From Beijerinckiaceae bacterium (GTDB lineage: Bacteria; Pseudomonadota; Alphaproteobacteria; Rhizobiales; Beijerinckiaceae), in contig JAUXWZ010000157.1 of the NCBI GenBank assembly GCA_030684835.1, positions 1 to 64,000 of the forward strand: DNA of 64,000 bases. Reading direction: 5' to 3'. Position numbers and translations under genes: made by a program. Positions 10,147 through 24,540 of this stretch are shown here, piece by piece. How positions within the stretch are numbered: the first letter of the stretch is position 1; each line of letters opens with the position of its first letter. The notes beneath the pieces were generated by a model. It searched no databases. It had not been told where the DNA came from and was given only the letters and a program-made list of their open reading frames with translations.

Positions 10147-12093
10147 TCAGGCGGATTGCCTGACGCGCATATACCATTCGACGAGACGGCGAACCTGCCG
10201 TTCGGTGTAGCCGCGCTCCATCATGCGCGACACGAAGTCAGCGTGCTTCTTCTCCGAGTCGGAGTCTTTCTTCGAACCGAAGCTGATCACGGGAAGCAAA
10301 TCTTCCACCTGACTAAACATGCGCCGCTCAATGACTTCGCGAATTTTCTGATAGCTGGTCCATGGCGGATTTTTGCCGCCGTTGGCTGCGCGCGAGCGTA
10401 ACGAAAATTTGACGACTTCATTTCTGAAGTCACGCGGATTGGCGATGCCCGCCGGCTTCTCGATCTTCGTGAGCTCCTGGTTAAGAAGCTCACGGTCCAG
10501 CATCTGTCCGGTATCGGTGTCCTTGAAATCCTGATCTTCAACCCATGCGTCTGCGTAATCGACGTATCGGTCAAAAAGATTTTGACCGTAATCGTGATAC
10601 GATTCCAGATACGCCTTTTGAATTTCGTTACCGATGAACTCGGCATATCGCGGCGCAAGATCACCTTTGATGTGCTCAAGCAGACGCTTTTCACCATCGG
10701 CACTGAATTGTTCGCGACGGATGGCTTGTTCGAGCACGTACATAAGATGCACAGGATCGGCGCCAACTTCCTGTGAGTCGTGGTTGAACGTGGCGGCAAG
10801 AACCTTGAAGGCGAAACGGGTGGATATCCCATCCATGCCTTCATCGGGCCCCGCGGCGTCACGGTATTCCTGAAGGCTGCGCGCGCGTGGGTCGGTTTCC
10901 CGCAGGCTCTCTCCATCGTAAACGCGCAGCTTTGAGAAGAAGGTCGAATTTTCGTGCGGGCGCAGGCGCGACAACACGGCAAAGCGGGCCAACATCTCAA
11001 GAGTCGCGGGCGCACAAGGCGCGTCGGCCAGTTCTGACCCACGGATCAGCTTATCGTAAATCTTTTGTTCTTCAGTCGCGCGAAGGCAGTATGGCACCTT
11101 GATTAGATAGATGCGGTCGATAAAGGCTTCGTTGTTCTTATTCGCTTTGAAGGTCTGCCATTCAGCTTCGTTGGAGTGCGCCAGAACGACGCCGTTAAAC
11201 GGAATTGCGCCAATGTTTTCCGTACCAACGTAATTGCTCTCTTGCGTCGCGGTGAGCAAGGGATGCAGCATCTTGATTGGAGCCTTGAACATCTCGACAA
11301 ATTCAAGAATGCCCTGGTTCGCACGGTTCAGCCCACCCGAATAGCTGTAAGCGTCTGCGTCATTCTGCGCGAGCGTTTCGAGCTTACGGATGTCTACCTT
11401 GCCAACCAGCGAAGAAATGTCCTGATTATTCTCGTCCCCGGGTTCGGTTTTTGAAATGCCGATCTGGCGTAAGCGAGACGGCAGAAGCTTGACGACCTTA
11501 AATTTCGTCAAATCCCCGCGAAATTCGTCCAGCCGCTTGAGGCACCAGGGGCTCATGAGGCCCGAGAGACGCCGCTTGGGTATGTGATAAAGACGCTCGA
11601 GTTCATCGCCCATCACGAGTGGGTCGAACAACGACAAAGGCGATTCAAATACAGGGCTTATCTGATCGCCTGCCTTAAGGACGTAGATTGGATGCACCTC
11701 CATCAGCGCCTTGAGTCGCTCCGCAAGCGAAGACTTGCCGCCGCCCACCGGACCCAGCAAATAAAGGATCTGCTTACGCTCCTCCAGCCCTTGCGCTGCA
11801 TGACGGAAGAACGAAACAATTCGTTCTACCGTTTCCTCCATGCCAAAAAATTCTGAAAAAGCCGGATATTGCCGGATTGTACGATTCATGAAAATGCGGC
11901 CGAGGCGTGGGTCTTTGGCCGTGTCAATGACGACCGGTTCACCAATCGCCGCGAGCAAACGCTCATGGGCGCCCGCGTAGCAAGTTGGATCTGTCTTGCA
12001 GGCCTCCAGATACTCCTGAATGGACAGCTCTACCGTACGTCGGCTGTCATAGTTCGTCGCATAGCGTGTGAGGAGATCAGATTCCACTGGCAT
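10147..12093 (-). CDS. prkA: PrkA-type serine protein kinase (YeaG)
   Basis: A protein of 648 residues with the chosen ATG, matching E. coli YeaG (644). An AAA-like ATPase domain comes first, with P-loop GPVGGGKS at about 114-121. The C-terminal PrkA kinase-like region follows. The family N-terminus (LSIQEYLEACKTDP) aligns with YeaG from the ATG at 12093. The GTG at 12165 would add 24 residues with no match and would lie within a possible promoter. PrkA/YeaG controls nutrient and stress adaptation. It is the first gene of prkA–DUF444–spoVR. Confidence 0.95.
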   Translation of the reverse strand: MPVESDLLTRYATNYDSRRTVELSIQEYLEACKTDPTCYAGAHERLLAAIGEPVVIDTAKDPRLGRIFMNRTIRQYPAFSEFFGMEETVERIVSFFRHAAQGLEERKQILYLLGPVGGGKSSLAERLKALMEVHPIYVLKAGDQISPVFESPLSLFDPLVMGDELERLYHIPKRRLSGLMSPWCLKRLDEFRGDLTKFKVVKLLPSRLRQIGISKTEPGDENNQDISSLVGKVDIRKLETLAQNDADAYSYSGGLNRANQGILEFVEMFKAPIKMLHPLLTATQESNYVGTENIGAIPFNGVVLAHSNEAEWQTFKANKNNEAFIDRIYLIKVPYCLRATEEQKIYDKLIRGSELADAPCAPATLEMLARFAVLSRLRPHENSTFFSKLRVYDGESLRETDPRARSLQEYRDAAGPDEGMDGISTRFAFKVLAATFNHDSQEVGADPVHLMYVLEQAIRREQFSADGEKRLLEHIKGDLAPRYAEFIGNEIQKAYLESYHDYGQNLFDRYVDYADAWVEDQDFKDTDTGQMLDRELLNQELTKIEKPAGIANPRDFRNEVVKFSLRSRAANGGKNPPWTSYQKIREVIERRMFSQVEDLLPVISFGSKKDSDSEKKHADFVSRMMERGYTERQVRRLVEWYMRVRQSA

Positions 12094-12641
12094 GGCCTTT
12101 TCAAGAAAAAGCTGTGTCCCGCGCAGCTTGTCCAACGCGTGTCCTGAGGCTCTTGTTAACGCCACGAGTACGCCAAAGTTTCCTCAAAGATGGACAATCT
12201 GGCAATAGCTGAAGAGCAATGCGCTCCGGCATTCCAGCATTCCCCTCCAAGTTTTCTTAACGTCGTTACGACGCCTGCTTCAAACGGATCAGTGACACTA
12301 CGCCAGTCGCGCAATTTGTCCTGCCAAGCGGCTAATTACGAATCGCTCGCTCTGTAATAACAACAACGATCCTGTCGGAATGATGGCGCGTAGAACAGGC
12401 CCGTCAAGGGTCAGCAGCGCCGCACCCCCTGCTTTTTCAAAAGGTCCACCTTGGGCCATCTAGACCTTATGCGGGCACCCATTGACGAAACGAGAACAGT
12501 GTGGAGAGCCGAGGCGGAAGCTTGACGCTTTACCGAATACAGCAAAGCTCCCTTTGTCTCGCGATCGAACCGCCTATATGATAACCGCGAGTTTGCTCGA
12601 AGCGCGTCCTTTGAGCTTCGAGGGTTACGGAGGATGCCAGA
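12094..12641. other. intergenic region between prkA and the MBL-fold gene
   Basis: A 548-base divergent gap. The part next to prkA carries the EcfG-like motif at 12158-12183. The part next to the metallo-hydrolase has a clear GGAGG at 12629-12633. A 67-codon frame at 12482-12685 overlaps the start of the hydrolase, has no recognisable family, and is judged a shadow. No RNA gene, repeat or terminator was recognised. Confidence 0.6.
12158..12183 (-). promoter_or_regulatory. possible EcfG-like promoter of prkA
   Basis: On the minus strand this reads GGAAAC, then CGTT with 16 bases between them (or GGAAA-N17-CGTT). That is one mismatch to the GGAAC-N16/17-CGTT consensus. Placement 65 bases before the chosen ATG fits. 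It would put prkA under the alphaproteobacterial general stress sigma factor, parallel to RpoS control of yeaGH in E. coli (inference). Confidence 0.35.
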
Positions 12642-15198: not shown

Positions 15199-16425
15199 TT
15201 AGGCGTGCACGAGCTTATACAATCCCACATCGATTGTTCGCGCGCGAAACCCCGCTTCGCAATAGCAAAGATAATACTCCCAGAGGCGCCTGAACCGCGC
15301 ATCAAAGCCTTGCGTGGAAATTTGCGGTGCGGCATGCAGCATCCGCCGACGCCATTCCGCCAGAGTAAGTGCGTAACTGTCGGCAAACGTCTCGCTTTCA
15401 GCGATCCTCAGACCAGCGTCCGCCGCGTAACGCTCAAGCACCGAACGAGATGGCAACATCCCACCCGGAAACACGTATCGCTGAATAAAATCAGCAGCTT
15501 TTCTGTACGCTTCAAAGCGGTCGTCAGCGATGGTGATTGCCTGCAACACCGCGCAACCGCCTTGCTTCAGGCGCTGCGAAATGGCCCGAAAATAATGCGG
15601 CCAGTATCGCTCACCAACAGCCTCGATCATCTCGATCGAAACAACACGATCGTAGACGCCTTGAACATCGCGATAATCCTGAAGACGCAAATCCAGTTTT
15701 TGCGAAAGTCCCTCTTCCGCAGCGGTGCGCTGCGCGAAGGCGAGTTGCGCCGGAGACAGCGTCAATCCCGTCACCCTGGCCCCGCGAACGGCCAAAGCGC
15801 GACCCAGCGCGCCCCATCCACAGCCGATTTCTAAAACGCTCTTCGCGCTATCAACGTCGAGCATATCGCCAATGCGCGCGATCTTGCGCAACTGCGCTTC
15901 TTCGAGACTTTCCTGCCCGCCGGCGCTGTAAATAGCGGACGAATACGTCATCGAGGCGTCCAGCCACAACGCGTAAAATTCGTTGCCGAGGTCGTAATGC
16001 GCCTCTATGTTTCGGCGGCTGCCGCGCTTGGTGTTAGCGCGCAGCGCGTGACGAAGACGATTAAGGCTTCGCACAATCGGTCCCCCGCCGATAGCGGTGT
16101 CCAGCGTCTCTCCATTGCGCGCCGCAAGCTCGATGACCGCGGTCAAATCAGGCGTCGTCCAGTCGCCGTTCATATAGGCTTCCGCGAACGCGACATCACC
16201 TCCAAGAATCAATTGGCGCACTGCGCGCCAGCGGTGCAAAACAATGCAGGCTTCCGGCCCCGCCGCCTGCGCATGGTAGACAATGCGGCCGCCCGACGGC
16301 GTGACGACCGTCACACCCCCGAATTGGACACGACGGATAAATGGCGCGAGCGCGGCCGCCAGGAGTTCTTCAACCCCGCGGATCCCGGTTTGTTCGCGCA
16401 GGCTCTCGTTAGCGTTTCGGGTCAT
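15199..16425 (-). CDS. cfa: cyclopropane-fatty-acyl-phospholipid synthase family methyltransferase
   Basis: A protein of 408 residues with the CFA synthase layout: an N-terminal lipid-binding part, then the linker EAHYDLGNEFYALWLD, SAM motif VLEIGCGWGALG and the catalytic region ending in YYLCYCEAGFRAR. It transfers a methyl(ene) group from SAM to unsaturated acyl chains of membrane phospholipids. It is the last gene of the operon FAD protein–DUF1365–cfa. In Rhodobacter sphaeroides and pseudomonads, the same gene set belongs to RpoE–ChrR (singlet oxygen) regulons. It may make methylated or furan fatty acids instead of cyclopropane acids. Confidence 0.9.
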   Translation of the reverse strand: MTRNANESLREQTGIRGVEELLAAALAPFIRRVQFGGVTVVTPSGGRIVYHAQAAGPEACIVLHRWRAVRQLILGGDVAFAEAYMNGDWTTPDLTAVIELAARNGETLDTAIGGGPIVRSLNRLRHALRANTKRGSRRNIEAHYDLGNEFYALWLDASMTYSSAIYSAGGQESLEEAQLRKIARIGDMLDVDSAKSVLEIGCGWGALGRALAVRGARVTGLTLSPAQLAFAQRTAAEEGLSQKLDLRLQDYRDVQGVYDRVVSIEMIEAVGERYWPHYFRAISQRLKQGGCAVLQAITIADDRFEAYRKAADFIQRYVFPGGMLPSRSVLERYAADAGLRIAESETFADSYALTLAEWRRRMLHAAPQISTQGFDARFRRLWEYYLCYCEAGFRARTIDVGLYKLVHA

Positions 16426-16434
16426 ATGCTAATC

Positions 16435-17241
16435 TCAGCTTTCGACGCGCGGCGCGATGGTGGCAGGCTTGTCGGGCGGCGCCGGACGTTTCTGCAGACG
16501 CACGCCTTTGAGCCATATTTTCAGCGCCTCCCAATGGATGCCGCCGATCACCTTGATCGCCATAAGCGGGTGGGACGCGAACGTGCGAACCAGCGCACCG
16601 TCACTCAATTCCACGCGATGCGCAGAGTGCACGGCCGTGATGAGTGTTCCCTCGTCATTATAGCCGCGAATAGCGATGGTCACCGTCTCCTCAGGAAGCG
16701 CAATCCGAAAGTCGTAAGTCAGGTCCATCCCGATGAAGGGTGAAACATAAAACTTTTTTGCGCAGGCGCAACGCATTGCACGATCCGCACCTGCCCTTTC
16801 CGGCTCGGCCACAAGCACATAGGCATGGCGCTCGCCAAAAGTATTATTCACCTCGCAGATGATCGCGACAAGCGAGCCACCATCCTTATCATAACAAAAA
16901 TAGACGTTTAGCGGATTGAATGCGTATCCAAGGATGCGCGGGATGGCGAGCAGACGCACGGGTCCGCCAGTAGGCTGAAGCCCTGCCTCGCTTAACAGGT
17001 CTTCGATCTGCAGCTTCAGGGGCTTTCCTTTTTTGAAGCCAAAATCATTATCGAAAAAAGAAAAGAGATTGAACCTGTTGCGTGAGAAGAACCACAGCCG
17101 GTCATTCAGCTTGTCCAGCTCATCGAGATCAAACAGAAATGAAAAGATGGAATACCGCAGGCGATGGCGCCGCGGACGCACGCGACGATGCATCACGGAG
17201 CCAGCGAAAATGGCAGAGTTTGTCGACCGCAATTTACTCAC
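16435..17241 (-). CDS. DUF1365 domain protein
   Basis: A protein of 268 residues with DUF1365 signatures: MHRRVRPRRHRLRY near the start, the long FFSRNRFNLFSFFDNDFG segment, LLAIPRILGYAFNPLNVYFC and the KKFYVSPFIGM region. It starts with GTG in a GTGA overlap with the stop of the FAD protein. Function is unknown; family members sit next to cyclopropane synthase and FAD amine-oxidase genes and are thought to act in lipid modification. The downstream cfa gene begins 9 bases later. Confidence 0.92.
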   Translation of the reverse strand: MSKLRSTNSAIFAGSVMHRRVRPRRHRLRYSIFSFLFDLDELDKLNDRLWFFSRNRFNLFSFFDNDFGFKKGKPLKLQIEDLLSEAGLQPTGGPVRLLAIPRILGYAFNPLNVYFCYDKDGGSLVAIICEVNNTFGERHAYVLVAEPERAGADRAMRCACAKKFYVSPFIGMDLTYDFRIALPEETVTIAIRGYNDEGTLITAVHSAHRVELSDGALVRTFASHPLMAIKVIGGIHWEALKIWLKGVRLQKRPAPPDKPATIAPRVES

Positions 17242-18587
17242 GGCGTCAATTCCGCGCCTGCCAGGTCCGGCGGCGGACTGACAAAAACGCGCCCGGATTC
17301 CTCGGCAACGCGCCAGGGACGGCGCACGCTTCCCAACGCTTCCGCAACGGCGAGACCAGATTGTAGACCGTCTTCATGAAAGCCTGCCCCCATCCAGGCG
17401 CCGCAAAACCAGGTATTGCGCCGGCCCTGCAATGACCAGACATGGCGCTGCGCTGCAATCGCGCCTGCGTCGAAGACTGGATGATCATAAGTAATATCGC
17501 GAAGCGTCAAGTCGGCGCGAGGCTCTTGTGGCGAATTGAGCGAAACAAAGATATTTTGCGCTGTAGGCAACCCTTGCAGCCGGTTCATCCAGTATGTGAC
17601 CGCGGGTGGGCGACGGTCCGCCCCCTGCCCTTCGGCAAGATAGTTCCAGCTGGACCACACGCTGCGCCGTGTTGGCATGAGCTTCTCATCTGTGTGAAGC
17701 ACCGCGCGATTCTTAGAATAGCGGAAGGCGCCCAGCACTTCACGCTCCATCTGATCCGCGTCCGCCAACATGGCGACCGTTTGATCGGCGTGGGTTGCAA
17801 GCACGACATGATCAAACGTATCCATGCCTCCGGCGGCGTCATGCACCTCGACCCCGATCGGACCACGAACGACCTGACGGACAGGCGTCGCCAGCCGGAT
17901 GTCACCGGTAATGAGGCTCTCCAGTTTGCGGACGTACTCGATGCTGCCGCCTTCCACAGTACGCCACCGGGGGCGTTCGCCAAGTTCAAGCAGGCGGTGA
18001 TTGCGGCAGAAACGGATGAATGCCTCGGCTGGATAATCGCCAATCTTTCCCGCTGGCGTCGACCAGATGGCCGCAGCCATGGGGTAAAGGTGCAAATCCC
18101 GAAACGCCTGAGAATAGCGTCCCTCGTCGAGATATTGTTCAAGCGTCAAGCCGCTCAGATTGCGCATGTCGGCCTTGGCTGCCCGATAGAACCGCACGAG
18201 ATCGGCGCACATGCGCCAGAATCTTGGGTTTAGAAGGTTGCCCTTTTGCGCGAACAGACCGCCAAGCCCCGAGCCGCAGTATTCGGTTGCGCCTCGGTCC
18301 ATCGAGACCGCAAAAGACATGTCAGACGCCTTGGTCGCCACACCAAGATGCTCGAACATAGCAATCAGGTTCGGATAGGTGAGTTCATTATAGACAATGA
18401 ATCCCGTATCGACCGGAATTCGCCCCTCCGCGCAATCCACCATCACAGTGTTGCTGTGGCCGCCTAGCTTTGGCCCGGCCTCATATAGGGTGACACGGTG
18501 ATGGGTTGAAAGCAGCCACGCGGCAGCCAGGCCCGTCACGCCAGCTCCGATCACTGCAATTCGGAGCGGACGGGGAGCAAAATTCAC
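17238..18587 (-). CDS. FAD-dependent amine-oxidase-like protein (COG2907)
   Basis: About 449 residues. The FAD dinucleotide fold lies at the start: IAVIGAGVTGLAAAWLL, then the acidic end YEAGPKLGGHSNTV. The C-terminal FAD motif ends in WMGAGFHEDGLQSGLAVAEAL. The family is the predicted NAD/FAD-binding protein encoded with DUF1365 and CFA genes. The GTG at 18587 is chosen since GAGG stands 5 bases before it; the longer TTG frame adds 13 residues ahead of the FAD fold. In R. sphaeroides furan fatty acid synthesis, a flavoprotein-like step desaturates the methylated acyl chain, so an acyl-chain oxidation role is plausible (inference). Confidence 0.88.
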   Translation of the reverse strand: MNFAPRPLRIAVIGAGVTGLAAAWLLSTHHRVTLYEAGPKLGGHSNTVMVDCAEGRIPVDTGFIVYNELTYPNLIAMFEHLGVATKASDMSFAVSMDRGATEYCGSGLGGLFAQKGNLLNPRFWRMCADLVRFYRAAKADMRNLSGLTLEQYLDEGRYSQAFRDLHLYPMAAAIWSTPAGKIGDYPAEAFIRFCRNHRLLELGERPRWRTVEGGSIEYVRKLESLITGDIRLATPVRQVVRGPIGVEVHDAAGGMDTFDHVVLATHADQTVAMLADADQMEREVLGAFRYSKNRAVLHTDEKLMPTRRSVWSSWNYLAEGQGADRRPPAVTYWMNRLQGLPTAQNIFVSLNSPQEPRADLTLRDITYDHPVFDAGAIAAQRHVWSLQGRRNTWFCGAWMGAGFHEDGLQSGLAVAEALGSVRRPWRVAEESGRVFVSPPPDLAGAELTP

Positions 18588-18642: not shown

Positions 18643-18671
18643 CAATACGAGCACGGGTTGGAAGCGGATCA
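18643..18671 (-). promoter_or_regulatory. ECF11 (RpoE–ChrR)-like promoter, leftward lipid operon
   Basis: On the minus strand: TGATCC-N18-TATTG. The -35 box TGATC(C) is characteristic of group ECF11 sigma factors. It lies 56 bases before the GTG of the FAD protein. A mirror promoter with the same box and spacing lies 11 bases away on the other strand. Confidence 0.6.
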
Positions 18672-18682
18672 CAACCCGTCCG

Positions 18683-18711
18683 TGATCCGCAATGAAGCCC
18701 AGCCCGTAAAC
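18683..18711 (+). promoter_or_regulatory. ECF11 (RpoE–ChrR)-like promoter, rightward lipid operon
   Basis: TGATCC-N18-TAAAC, the same -35 box and the same spacing as the divergent site on the minus strand. A transcript would begin near 18718 and reach the DUF1295 start at 18759, so the upstream GTG at 18720 is unlikely to be used. Confidence 0.6.
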
Positions 18712-18758
18712 ACGGAGCAGTGCACGTTTGCGGCAGATTGCAACGAAGAGAGCGGACA

Positions 18759-19574
18759 ATGTTGACGGCGATAGCAGCGGCGGCCTTCTTCATGAGTGTC
18801 GCGATGACCCTCGCATGGGCCATCCAGCGCAAGACCGGCAATTCGGGGTGGATTGATACGGTGTGGTCGTTCGCCGTTGGCGCCGCCGCGTTCGCTCTGT
18901 CACTGGCTCCAGTAACGACCTCCAACGCGTTGACTTCCCGCCAGTTACTGGTCGCAAGCCTCGTGGCGATATGGGCCGCTCGACTTGGCGGCTACATCGC
19001 CTTTCGCAGCGCTGGATCCGCGGAAGACCCTCGTTATGCATCATTGGTGCAAGAGTGGGGCGCGGACGCTGGCCGACGGCTGTTTCTCTTTCTTCAGGCG
19101 CAGGCTGTGGCGGGCCTCATTCTGGCGCTCTCAGTTTTCGCAGCCGCGCAAAACCCGGCCTCCGGCCTCACAGTTCAAGATTATGTTGGCGCCGCGATCT
19201 TCCTGATCGCTCTGGGCGGGGCGGCGCTTTCCGACGACCAGTTAAGGCGTTTCAGGGCCGATCCCGCCAACCGGGGCAAGATATGCGATGCAGGGCTGTG
19301 GAGTTGGTCGCGTCACCCAAATTATTTTTTCGAGTGGTTGGGCTGGGTGGCCTACCCCGTCATCGCAATTTCGGGCGGATACGTTTGGGGATACGCCGCG
19401 CTCGCCGCCCCCATCCTGATGTACGTCTTGCTGGTCCATGTCTCCGGCATCCCCCCGCTGGAAGCGCACATGCTGCGCTCACGCGGCAAGGCCTTCGAAG
19501 ATTATCGCGCGCGCGTGAACGCCTTTTTTCCGGGGCCTCCCCAAAGGTCTGAACGCTCGTCCTCGCCCTCCTGA
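18759..19574 (+). CDS. DUF1295 / steroid 5-alpha-reductase C-terminal family membrane protein
   Basis: A protein of 271 residues with about seven membrane helices. The conserved C-terminal motif WSRHPNYFFEWLGW is that of DUF1295 and the wider isoprenylcysteine methyltransferase/steroid reductase group. GAGAG precedes the ATG. It heads the rightward lipid operon, 14 bases before a second CFA-like gene. The family is thought to be NAD(P)H-dependent membrane reductases, but the substrate is unknown. The neighbourhood suggests modified fatty acids. Confidence 0.9.
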   Translation: MLTAIAAAAFFMSVAMTLAWAIQRKTGNSGWIDTVWSFAVGAAAFALSLAPVTTSNALTSRQLLVASLVAIWAARLGGYIAFRSAGSAEDPRYASLVQEWGADAGRRLFLFLQAQAVAGLILALSVFAAAQNPASGLTVQDYVGAAIFLIALGGAALSDDQLRRFRADPANRGKICDAGLWSWSRHPNYFFEWLGWVAYPVIAISGGYVWGYAALAAPILMYVLLVHVSGIPPLEAHMLRSRGKAFEDYRARVNAFFPGPPQRSERSSSPS

Positions 19575-19588
19575 CCGGAGAAACGCCG

Positions 19589-20614
19589 ATGAATATGATC
19601 GCAGCCGCCACACGCTTTGCGGAACGCGCGCCTCTGCCTGATTCTCTTTCCCTTATGGGCATTGATTTCTTGTGCGCGCGCACTGCCCGAAAGCTGCGTG
19701 ACGAGGGCGCAGACGCGGAAGCGCGTTTTGCTGCTGAAATGGATGGATTTTCCATCGCCCTCCACACCGATGCCGCGAACGAACAACATTACGAATTGCC
19801 AGCCGAGTTTTTTAGGCTGGCGCTTGGTCCCCAGCGAAAATATTCTTCCTGCCTCTACACCGGCGGCGCAACAACGCTCGCCGAGGCGGAAGCCCGGGCG
19901 CTTGAAGAGACCGTCGCCCACGCGGATCTGCGCGACGGCCAGACAGTTCTGGAATTGGGTTGCGGATGGGGGTCATTGACTCTCTTCATGGCTGAGCGAT
20001 TCCCAGCGTCGCAGTTCACGGCGGTGTCCAACTCTAACTCCCAGCGCGAACACATCACGGCTCAGGCGGCTCTTCGCGGCTTGCCAAACGTCCGTGTGAT
20101 CACCGCCGACATGAACGATTTCGAAACGAGCAGCGCTTTTGACCGGATCGTCTCGGTTGAAATGTTCGAGCACATGTCAAACTGGCGCGGGCTTCTCACG
20201 CGCGTTCGCGGATGGGTGAAGCCGGAAGGTCGCTTGTTCCTCCACGTGTTCAGCCACCGCGCGCAACCCTACCGGTTTGAAGTGTCCGACAACGCCGACT
20301 GGATTGCGCAATACTTTTTTACGGGCGGAATCATGCCGAGCCACGGCCTCATCCAACATTTTGGCGATCTGTTCAAAGTTGAAGAGAACTGGCGCTGGAG
20401 CGGGGAGCATTACCGCCGCACGGCAATGCACTGGCTCGAAAATTTCGACGCCAATGCGGATCGGATCTCCCGGATCATGGCTGAAACATACGGCGCGGAC
20501 GCAGCGGTCTGGAGGCGCCGCTGGCGCCTGTTCTTTCTCGCAACCGCCGGCCTTTTTGGCCACAAGGGCGGCGACGAATGGGGCGTGAGCCACTATCGTC
20601 TGAAACCTGCGTAA
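19589..20614 (+). CDS. second CFA-synthase-like SAM methyltransferase
   Basis: A protein of 341 residues, shorter than the CFA synthase at 15199-16425, with no equivalent N-terminal domain. It carries NEQHYELPAEFFRLALG, SSCLYT, SAM motif VLELGCGWGSLTLF, and IVSVEMFEHM. This is the short branch of COG2230, related to plant coclaurine N-methyltransferase-like proteins. Two diverged methyltransferases in one locus suggest two different acyl products or two steps. GGAG precedes the ATG; the gene is cotranscribed with the DUF1295 gene. Confidence 0.88.
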   Translation: MNMIAAATRFAERAPLPDSLSLMGIDFLCARTARKLRDEGADAEARFAAEMDGFSIALHTDAANEQHYELPAEFFRLALGPQRKYSSCLYTGGATTLAEAEARALEETVAHADLRDGQTVLELGCGWGSLTLFMAERFPASQFTAVSNSNSQREHITAQAALRGLPNVRVITADMNDFETSSAFDRIVSVEMFEHMSNWRGLLTRVRGWVKPEGRLFLHVFSHRAQPYRFEVSDNADWIAQYFFTGGIMPSHGLIQHFGDLFKVEENWRWSGEHYRRTAMHWLENFDANADRISRIMAETYGADAAVWRRRWRLFFLATAGLFGHKGGDEWGVSHYRLKPA

Positions 20615-20669
20615 GTAGCTGAAAGCCAGACGTCATCAGGTGCGGCGCGCTCACCCCGGCGGATGGCGA

Positions 20670-21080
20670 CTAGGGAGAAGTGGCAAGTGCGCGCGCAATA
20701 ATAAAGCCCATGGTCGCGCTGCAAGCGGTCAGCGTGGCGCCCCACGCCATATCCACAACGGTCAGCGTTGTGGTCCATACCTTGAGCGTTGCATGGTTTG
20801 TGAGGTCGTAAGTGCCGTAGCAAACAAGACCAAGGAATGCGCCATAAAGAAGCGCCGTGGTCCACTTGCCGGTCGAGACGGCGGGCGAAATCGCAAAGAC
20901 CACAATTGCGAGTACATAAAGAAAGTAAAAAACAGCGGCTGGGGCGAGGCGAAACTGGTCAAGCAGAAGATCGCCAAGGGCTGGTCGATAAAGCGCCTTC
21001 CCCATCACAGTTAGCCAGATGGCGTCGAGAACAAGCAAGACAACGCCAGTCGCCAGATAGCCGACCGCCCAGAACTTCAT
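20670..21080 (-). CDS. DUF2177 family membrane protein
   Basis: A protein of 136 residues with four membrane helices: DAIWLTVMGKALYRPALG early, YGTYDLTNHATLKVW in the third helix, both DUF2177 hallmarks. Function is unknown; the family occurs in the same clusters as DUF1365 and CFA genes. It converges with the second CFA-like gene and has its own TGATCC-type promoter, which ties it to the same regulon. Confidence 0.9.
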   Translation of the reverse strand: MKFWAVGYLATGVVLLVLDAIWLTVMGKALYRPALGDLLLDQFRLAPAAVFYFLYVLAIVVFAISPAVSTGKWTTALLYGAFLGLVCYGTYDLTNHATLKVWTTTLTVVDMAWGATLTACSATMGFIIARALATSP

Positions 21081-21102
21081 GTGAAAACTCCCGCCATGTG
21101 TT

Positions 21103-21131
21103 CGATACGTAAACGCTATCGGTACGGATCA
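21103..21131 (-). promoter_or_regulatory. third ECF11-like promoter (DUF2177 gene)
   Basis: On the minus strand: TGATCC-N18-TATCG, with a leader of about 20 bases to the ATG at 21080. Identical -35 box and spacing to the two divergent promoters 2.4 kb away. Confidence 0.6.
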
Positions 21132-23417: not shown

Positions 23418-24540
23418 TCAGATGCCGCAAAGCTCCTTCGCCTGCGCAAGCAAAGCCCCGCCGCGCAGCCCTTCCGGCAAAGTGAAATGATTGGCGCCCG
23501 GCGTGATGAGCGGCGCAGCCGCGCCCCATGCCCGCGCAAGATCGACGCTCTGGCGCTTGAACTCGTCGCTCTCGGCGCCGCCAATCGCAAAAGCAAGCCG
23601 CACGCCGCTACGTGGGCGCATGCCGTGCGGCGATAATTGCGCGACATCATCAAGCGTCGTGACGCCGAGTATCTTGCCCATCGGCAGATGCATCAGCGAT
23701 TCAAGAAAGAGCACGCCCGACAACGGATGCGCGGAAGCAAGCGGCGGACATAGCGGATCGCACGCCATGAAGGCCGCCAAATGTCCGCCGGCGGAATGGC
23801 CGCTCACATGCAGCCGCGATGCGTCAACACCCAGCGCGTCCGCTTCGCGAACGAGAAACCACAGCGCAGCGCGCAACTGTTCGACAATGCGCGCAAGAGG
23901 CGTCTGCGGCGCAAGGCCGTAGTCGATATTGGCGACAGCGTAACCCGCCTCCACCATGCCGGTGCAGAATTGCGCGTGCTGATCCTTGGTGGAGGCCTGC
24001 CAATAACCACCATGGATGAAAACCCAGACAGGCGGGCGAACGACGCCGGCAGGACGATAAAGATCGAGGATCTGGTCGCGATGGGGGCCATACGCAATGT
24101 CCAGCCCGCCAGGCAAACGCGCGCGGGCGGCAGCGCCATCGGCAGTCCATTTCGCAAACACCGCGCTCATGTCCGGCACTTGCGCGCGCGGGCTCATCTG
24201 CGCGGCCAATTGCGCGCGTGTATAGCCTTGATACACAGACTGATCATCAGATATTGGCGCAGCAACCAACGCGCGCAGAACAACCTGAATCTCATCACCC
24301 GCGCACTGCTCAAGCAGCAGCGGTGGACGAAAGCCCGCGAACGCTTCGCGCCGGGCAAGATCGACCTCCCGGCGTGCGGGATGGATGGCGGCGGGATTGG
24401 GCGCGCGCCAAATCATCTGGCTCATCTGCGGCGGTGCGGCCCCCGCCGCTGCGAGCTTGCCGCCAGCCAGAATGAGCGCGCGCGCAAGCGCGGACACGCC
24501 GCGACCCTCGCATGTGGCCTCCACCTCGATGGGGCGCGCC

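Follow-up and report, generated by a model that had tools for sequence, protein, structure and literature searches.

Three ECF11-type promoter sites in a Beijerinckiaceae genome that encodes an RpoE-like sigma factor and ChrR apart

Three promoter sites and the genes behind them

We analysed a stretch of 64,000 nucleotides from a Beijerinckiaceae bacterium (assembly GCA_030684835.1, contig JAUXWZ010000157.1; hereafter the window), in which three promoter-like sites between positions 18,643 and 21,131 face six genes. An initial annotation of the DNA had claimed that the three sites share a -35 box, a spacer and a -10 box, and had read their TGATC(C) as the -35 of sigma factors of group 11 of the extracytoplasmic function (ECF) family, here ECF11. 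All three sites are present in the sequence, and the genes behind them match the families named there, namely a flavin adenine dinucleotide (FAD) protein, DUF1365, CFA, DUF1295, a second CFA-like protein and DUF2177:

15199 to 16425, minus strand: CFA/CMAS-type methyltransferase in the place of UfaM (PF02353, E 7.8e-77)
16435 to 17241, minus strand: DUF1365 protein, UfaO-like by family (PF07103, E 5.8e-81)
17238 to 18587, minus strand: FAD-dependent oxidoreductase, UfaD-like by family, with a GTG start in an open reading frame (ORF) that is open to TTG 18626 (PF01593, E 2.3e-20)
18646 to 18671, minus strand: predicted ECF11-type promoter of the FAD-DUF1365-CFA operon, -35 TGATCC at 18671-18666, 16-base spacer, -10 CGTA at 18649-18646
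18683 to 18708, plus strand: predicted ECF11-type promoter of the DUF1295-CFA2 operon, -35 TGATCC at 18683-18688, -10 CGTA at 18705-18708
18759 to 19574, plus strand: DUF1295 membrane protein (PF06966, E 1.9e-68)
19589 to 20614, plus strand: second CFA/CMAS-like methyltransferase, CFA2 (PF02353, E 5.8e-41)
20670 to 21080, minus strand: DUF2177 membrane protein (PF09945, E 4.4e-45)
21106 to 21131, minus strand: predicted ECF11-type promoter of the DUF2177 gene, -35 TGATCC at 21131-21126, -10 CGTA at 21109-21106

The pattern first proposed, TGATCC-N18-TA, is equivalent to TGATCC-N16-CGTA, but the common -10 consists of four bases (CGTA) and not of two. In this form it is the ECF11 consensus published for Pseudomonas syringae PSPTO_1043 from ChIP-seq work (PMC5507510), and it matches the Shewanella RpoE2 promoters with mapped starts, which carry TGATCC with CGTAAT or CGTATT (PMC4336711). 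The distances from the end of CGTA to the start codons are 59 positions for the FAD gene (GTG 18587), 51 for DUF1295 (ATG 18759) and 26 for DUF2177 (ATG 21080), within the 20 to 60 bases claimed at the outset. At the promoter level, the locus therefore has what an ECF11 regulon shows, TGATCC-N16-CGTA at gene starts. The -35 boxes of the two divergent sites (18666-18688) stand back to back with 11 bases between them, so that two polymerases could hardly be accommodated simultaneously; among the 15 relatives with both sites, this gap measures 6-15 bases in eight and 21-650 in the other seven.

In the first operon, an ECF11 site precedes a FAD, a DUF1365 and a CFA-type gene, which is the composition of the furan fatty acid operon ufaD-ufaO-ufaM. 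In Rhodobacter sphaeroides, UfaD, UfaO (which holds a DUF1365 domain) and UfaM are described as making the furan fatty acid 9M5-FuFA, and the ufaM-ufaO-ufaD homologues of Rhodopseudomonas palustris make it when placed in R. sphaeroides (PMC7380195). By family membership, the operon in the window is probably furan-fatty-acid-like.

That three such sites are chance resemblances gains something from the fact that the pattern also occurs in coding sequence, since three of the eight exact matches in the whole genome (4.93 Mb) fall within ORFs or at their ends and appear to be background. The counts, however, are far above the controls. A genome-wide scan gives eight exact TGATCC-N16-CGTA sites against one for the reversed pattern, five of the eight lying upstream of starts (the three in the window, chrR and an rpoH-type gene), and across the 51 genomes listed under its genus the count is 350 against 21. 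The Poisson probability of three sites in 64 kb is 3.6e-7 at the control rate and 1.7e-4 at the rate of this genome, with these three sites counted in. Moreover, all three sites are kept at the same places in each of the six relatives with the gene order of the window, the FAD site being TGATCT in the relative G007. The earlier judgement that chance is unlikely thus agrees with both the counts and the conservation, and we give coincidence next to no credence.

Within the window, TGATCC-N18-TA has four matches against a shuffle mean of 0.66 (one of 100 shuffles reaches four); the fourth (23980-24005) has AATA and sits within long ORFs, and requiring CGTA leaves only the three. With one mismatch allowed there are six matches against 2.75 expected, and two shuffles reach six; thus only the exact sites carry meaning. 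We did not count the one-mismatch matches at 10532 and 54510, which lie inside or opposite long ORFs, or at 12367, where there are only short frames, as promoters. The copy at 10532-10557 lies opposite a 678-codon frame that by eye resembles a serine protein kinase, and G007 carries an exact TGATCC version of a similar sequence. The looser pattern TGATC-N17-CGTAW has 25 matches in the genome against four for its reverse; we claim no wider regulon from counts alone.

Outside the window, the rpoH-type gene starts 24 positions past the end of its exact site. Its product matches NCBIfam PRK07500 (sigma-32) with 450 bits against a cut-off of 315, and we take it to be of the RpoHII type. Of 30 loci with such a gene, 19 have the ECF11 site, which starts at -49 to -57.

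An RpoE-like sigma factor and a ChrR encoded apart

The initial annotation had remarked that no rpoE-chrR pair lies in the window and had made its reading depend on an ECF11 sigma/ChrR pair in the genome. The assembly (4.93 Mb, 208 contigs, 96% complete) encodes both proteins, not as a gene pair but on different contigs, C91 and C186. The sigma factor (contig C91, locus L017) has R. sphaeroides RpoE/SigE as its best match in the PDB (E 3.3e-41, the next at 3.9e-17; only this sigma was compared), so that among solved sigmas it is nearest to RpoE, as expected of an ECF11 sigma. A typical ECF11 sigma shares its operon with chrR, and no chrR lies beside this one. A single ChrR exceeds the TIGR02451 cut-off (C186:3037-3651, locus L009); it matches the ChrR fold and has the cupin ligands H141, H143, E147 and H177, and it stays below the cut-off of the equivalog NF051881 (cadmium/peroxide/UV responsive) with 124.6 bits against 300. 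Its gene is preceded by an exact ECF11 site, and its neighbours are a DNA photolyase gene and one that by eye resembles a cysteine synthase gene; no sigma gene was found among the flanking genes inspected on C186. The photolyase (L009:2149-3600) stands tail to tail with chrR, also in several other split genomes, where split denotes a sigma and a ChrR that are encoded apart. Photolyases are ECF11 targets elsewhere, yet this one points towards chrR.

As eight matches in the genome exceed the sigma70-ECF domain cut-off, several of them other ECFs, a different ECF sigma could in principle read the sites. The RpoE-likeness of the C91 sigma, to which the genome's next most similar sigma is only 32% identical, points the other way. 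The general-stress ECF consensus, GGAAC/CGTT, also differs from these sites. In addition, sites number 0.88 per Mb in the six genus genomes without an RpoE-like sigma against 2.01 in the 45 with one (p 0.006), with the caveat that five of the six are less than 90% complete. We therefore regard another ECF sigma as very improbable, and the ECF11 reading of the three sites is supported.

The separation is conserved. By match coordinates, 31 of the 51 genus genomes (this one included) encode both split-type proteins, in all 31 on different contigs. Eleven have an adjacent sigma-chrR pair, three have only the sigma, one has only the ChrR, and five have neither (G006, G012, G013, G020, G035). We fetched nine of the 11 adjacent-pair regions (G001, G002, G014, G016, G017, G019, G021, G032 and G045); the other two genomes, G005 and G028, gave no DUF1295 match. 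All nine have the order FAD gene, divergent sites, sigma, chrR, DUF1295, and the site that corresponds to 18683..18708 faces sigma-chrR-DUF1295. They resemble the window in that the FAD and DUF1295 operons diverge, each with an ECF11 site in front of it (the two sites lie 8-46 bases apart in seven loci, ~540 in G014 and ~650 in G001), and differ from it in that sigma and chrR stand between the promoter and DUF1295. The window and six relatives (G007, G011, G027, G030, G031, G047) have instead the FAD gene, divergent sites, DUF1295, CFA2, and DUF2177 with its own site. Since the pair stands between the divergent promoters and DUF1295 in all nine, the window is the ECF11 core locus minus the pair; "without a local sigma factor", as the initial annotation put it, is correct for the window and not peculiar to it. 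Removal of the pair is the simpler direction, because a single rpoE-chrR operon is described as the usual state (PMC6852236). Given the age of the split sigma and ChrR lineages, one pair may instead have replaced another. In G007, a single contig, C28 (L227, L065), carries the window-like locus and, ~93 kb away, the orphan chrR.

To look beyond the genus, we scanned genome contigs with the split ChrR alignment and kept the best 80 of 238 loci, a set that overlaps with the genus set. These 80 belong to Beijerinckiaceae and other Hyphomicrobiales metagenome-assembled genomes, Alsobacter, Bosea, Prosthecomicrobium, Rhabdaerophilum, Stappia, Roseibium and Pannonibacter, two being titled just Alphaproteobacteria. 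No sigma gene was found in the fetched flanks of any of them (≤3 kb, some cut by contig ends), and TGATC-N17-CGTA lies within 400 bases upstream of chrR in 71. From these loci we took 22 genomes, none of which shares ChrR coordinates with a genus-list genome. They were picked for having ChrR, and the presence of the sigma is thus the independent part: all 22 have one strong sigma of the split type (E ≤1.7e-72, whereas no further match in any of them is better than 1.3e-36) and, at E 1e-15, a single ChrR. The two are on different contigs in 20; where they share a contig, the distance is 1.3 Mb in Alsobacter metallidurans and 1.9 Mb in Prosthecomicrobium hirschii.

In quick, bootstrap-free trees, the split sigmas form one clade (110 rows; Shimodaira-Hasegawa-like approximate likelihood ratio test, SH-aLRT, 90), as do the split ChrRs (130 rows; SH-aLRT 99). 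The trees combine 66 of 131 adjacent rows (every second) of a class-wide sample, 14 of 34 genus split sigmas or 16 of 32 genus split ChrRs, 22 sigmas and 22 ChrRs from the ChrR-selected genomes, and eight of the 11 adjacent-pair genus rows; the ChrR tree also holds the 18 non-adjacent class rows. The class sample consists of the 149 ChrR matches listed with places, which are the stronger matches. Two of its rows, L462 and L466, both from the family of the window, fall within the split ChrR clade, L466 being identical to a row from one of the 22 genomes. An unlinked ChrR is not unique to this lineage, an idea that we rejected because no sigma was found beside 18 of the 149 class-sample ChrR genes, two of these in the window's family. 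Nine of the 18 keep the cysteine pair discussed below and nine do not. The nine that keep it, in other alphaproteobacteria with no sigma found beside chrR in the fetched stretch (L363, L370, L381, L385, L389, L400, L420, L423, L438), suggest that separation arose repeatedly; eight of them have an upstream ECF11 site.

Promoters and zinc sites of the split partners

Promoters and zinc residues were read for 23 of the 32 genus split ChrRs, counting that of this genome, and for 30 of the 34 genus split sigmas (the best 30 matches). Upstream regions were scored on TGATCC and CGTA with a matrix from 16 published sites, which are 11 of the 18 printed P. syringae sites (the better matches) and five Shewanella RpoE2 sites. 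Of 45 split loci, 44 score at least 12 bits ahead of chrR, against 1.3% of shuffled upstreams, and eight of eight adjacent-pair loci do so ahead of the sigma gene. Upstream of the split sigma genes, 10 bits is reached in none of 52 loci and 8 bits in two, so the own ECF11 promoter that typifies an ECF11 sigma gene is missing there. An exact TGATCC site precedes split chrR in 18 of 23 genus loci. In the split lineage, the site is carried only by the gene of the presumed inhibitor, chrR, which suggests that self-amplification was lost and negative feedback alone was kept. In G007, an exact ECF11 site (L071, C12:206697-206722) follows the split sigma gene after ~50 bases and faces an ORF that by eye resembles a 2Fe-2S protein.

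ChrR residues were numbered by alignment to R. sphaeroides ChrR; for the zinc site of the anti-sigma domain we counted H31, C35 and C38 and left H6 aside. The two split sets, which overlap, give 102 full rows, and among the 80 contig-scan rows one lacks the N-terminal part and one the H177 column. All 23 genus split rows and all 79 contig-scan rows that reach there keep H31 and have neither C35 nor C38, so that split ChrR lacks two of the anti-sigma-domain zinc ligands expected of a zinc anti-sigma (ZAS) protein. In the cupin domain, the ligands H141, H143, E147 and H177 are retained wherever a split row reaches them. Both cysteines occur in all eight aligned adjacent-pair ChrRs of the genus, and in the class sample in 105 of 131 sigma-adjacent and nine of 18 non-adjacent ChrRs; all 149 retain the four cupin ligands. 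We rejected the idea that cysteine loss always accompanies separation, as 26 of the 131 adjacent ChrRs lack the pair by alignment (29 by a cruder text match).

These observations bear on an alternative that accepts the ECF11 promoters but supposes that the split ChrR has ceased to act as an anti-sigma factor. The sigma would be set by its own synthesis or by another partner, with ChrR a mere target, for example a cupin sensor or effector. The absence of both cysteines from every split row that reaches there and the separation of chrR from the sigma gene would fit this, as would R. sphaeroides, where the anti-sigma-domain zinc is reported as required for inhibition; the same review terms its precise role in the singlet-oxygen response unknown (PMC6852236). 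However, the anti-sigma domain is conserved in split ChrR despite the cysteine loss, and the predicted structure, with four helices in this domain, matches the ChrR of 2q1z best (TM-score 0.64, root-mean-square deviation 5.1, 187 columns). The 26 linked ChrRs without the cysteine pair indicate that its absence is tolerated in linked pairs, and RseA and RskA are described as functioning with no zinc motif (PMC7406223). In 14 of the 52 split sigma loci we looked next to the sigma gene for a second, conserved inhibitor gene and saw none; what lies downstream varies among the 14. Taken together, we consider it unlikely that ChrR is a target alone.

We favour, with a probability of about 0.8, the reading that the three sites are promoters of a single ECF11-type sigma, that of C91, held by the ChrR of C186 in an unlinked negative-feedback system. 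The C91 sigma would be kept inactive by ChrR, whose gene has the same promoter, until photo-oxidative or peroxide stress makes ChrR let it go. The freed sigma would then induce the furan-fatty-acid synthesis genes (FAD, DUF1365, CFA), the DUF1295-CFA and DUF2177 units, the rpoH-type sigma and chrR. As chrR but not the sigma gene would be induced, the outcome would be negative feedback and no self-amplification. ChrR would inhibit without anti-sigma-domain zinc and sense the stress through its cupin domain, and furan fatty acids and the other products would protect the membrane. Because furan fatty acids have been linked to ChrR turnover (PMC6852236), the first operon of the window may, by analogy, also feed back on ChrR. 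For a whole lineage within the Hyphomicrobiales, we put at even odds that the ECF11 singlet-oxygen response works through an unlinked, domain-zinc-free ChrR as the sole autoregulated partner, which would sense via the cupin zinc alone.

Several points weigh against this reading. The zinc is needed in R. sphaeroides and the split ChrR has no such cysteines, so ChrR may not inhibit; its structural model is moderately confident (mean predicted local distance difference test score, pLDDT, 77, with helix IV near 58). The site is not universal: the exact TGATCC form is missing at five of 23 split chrR loci of the genus, TGATC-N17-CGTA is missing within 400 bases upstream at nine of the 80 contig-scan loci, and 11 of the 30 rpoH-type loci have no site, one of them cut by a contig end. 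G023, G034, G038 and G040 have a single site between the FAD and DUF1295 genes, with no CFA2 adjoining DUF1295, and DUF1295 is thus not a target in every relative. The partners do not always co-occur, as G022, G023 and G050 have the sigma with no ChrR found and G026 the reverse. The assembly itself, in 208 contigs, has 3.9% contamination, and the regulation of the three units is predicted from sequence.

Relation to known systems

In Bradyrhizobium japonicum, of the same order, the singlet-oxygen sigmas studied belong to groups 33 and 16 and not to ECF11 (PMC3420878), and a lake study describes abundant freshwater clades with genomes that have no RpoE/ChrR homologues (PMC3965437). Our full-text literature search returned no account of an unlinked or cysteine-less ChrR, a weak negative, since relevant works are likely to lie outside its reach.

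A natural lineage without the domain-zinc cysteines and with an invariant cupin site could help to decide which zinc site senses singlet oxygen. If the lineage-wide reading given above is true, these bacteria do not sense singlet oxygen with the anti-sigma-domain zinc, and the break of the operon removed the positive loop. As the target locus occurs with and without the sigma/anti-sigma pair in close relatives, the effect of the lost sigma autoregulation should be measurable. Surveys that match sigmas to anti-sigmas through gene neighbourhood will miss unlinked pairs.

The system shares with RpoE-ChrR of R. sphaeroides an RpoE-like sigma, a ChrR cupin domain with all four zinc ligands, and furan-fatty-acid target genes. 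There, however, rpoEchrR is described as one operon within its own core regulon (PMC6852236), whereas here sigma and ChrR are apart, the site stands only at chrR, and the zinc site of the anti-sigma domain has neither C35 nor C38. PSPTO_1043-1042 of P. syringae has the same consensus and a reported target locus with cfa, amine-oxidase and photolyase genes; unlike here, its rpoE-chrR locus is under its own ECF11 promoter. The ufaM-ufaO-ufaD genes of R. palustris (RPA2569-2571; PMC7380195) are three neighbouring genes of the same kinds as the first operon, a likeness by family only. In summary, the promoters as such belong to a known regulon and are unremarkable in it; the unlinked, zinc-site-free arrangement is what is new.

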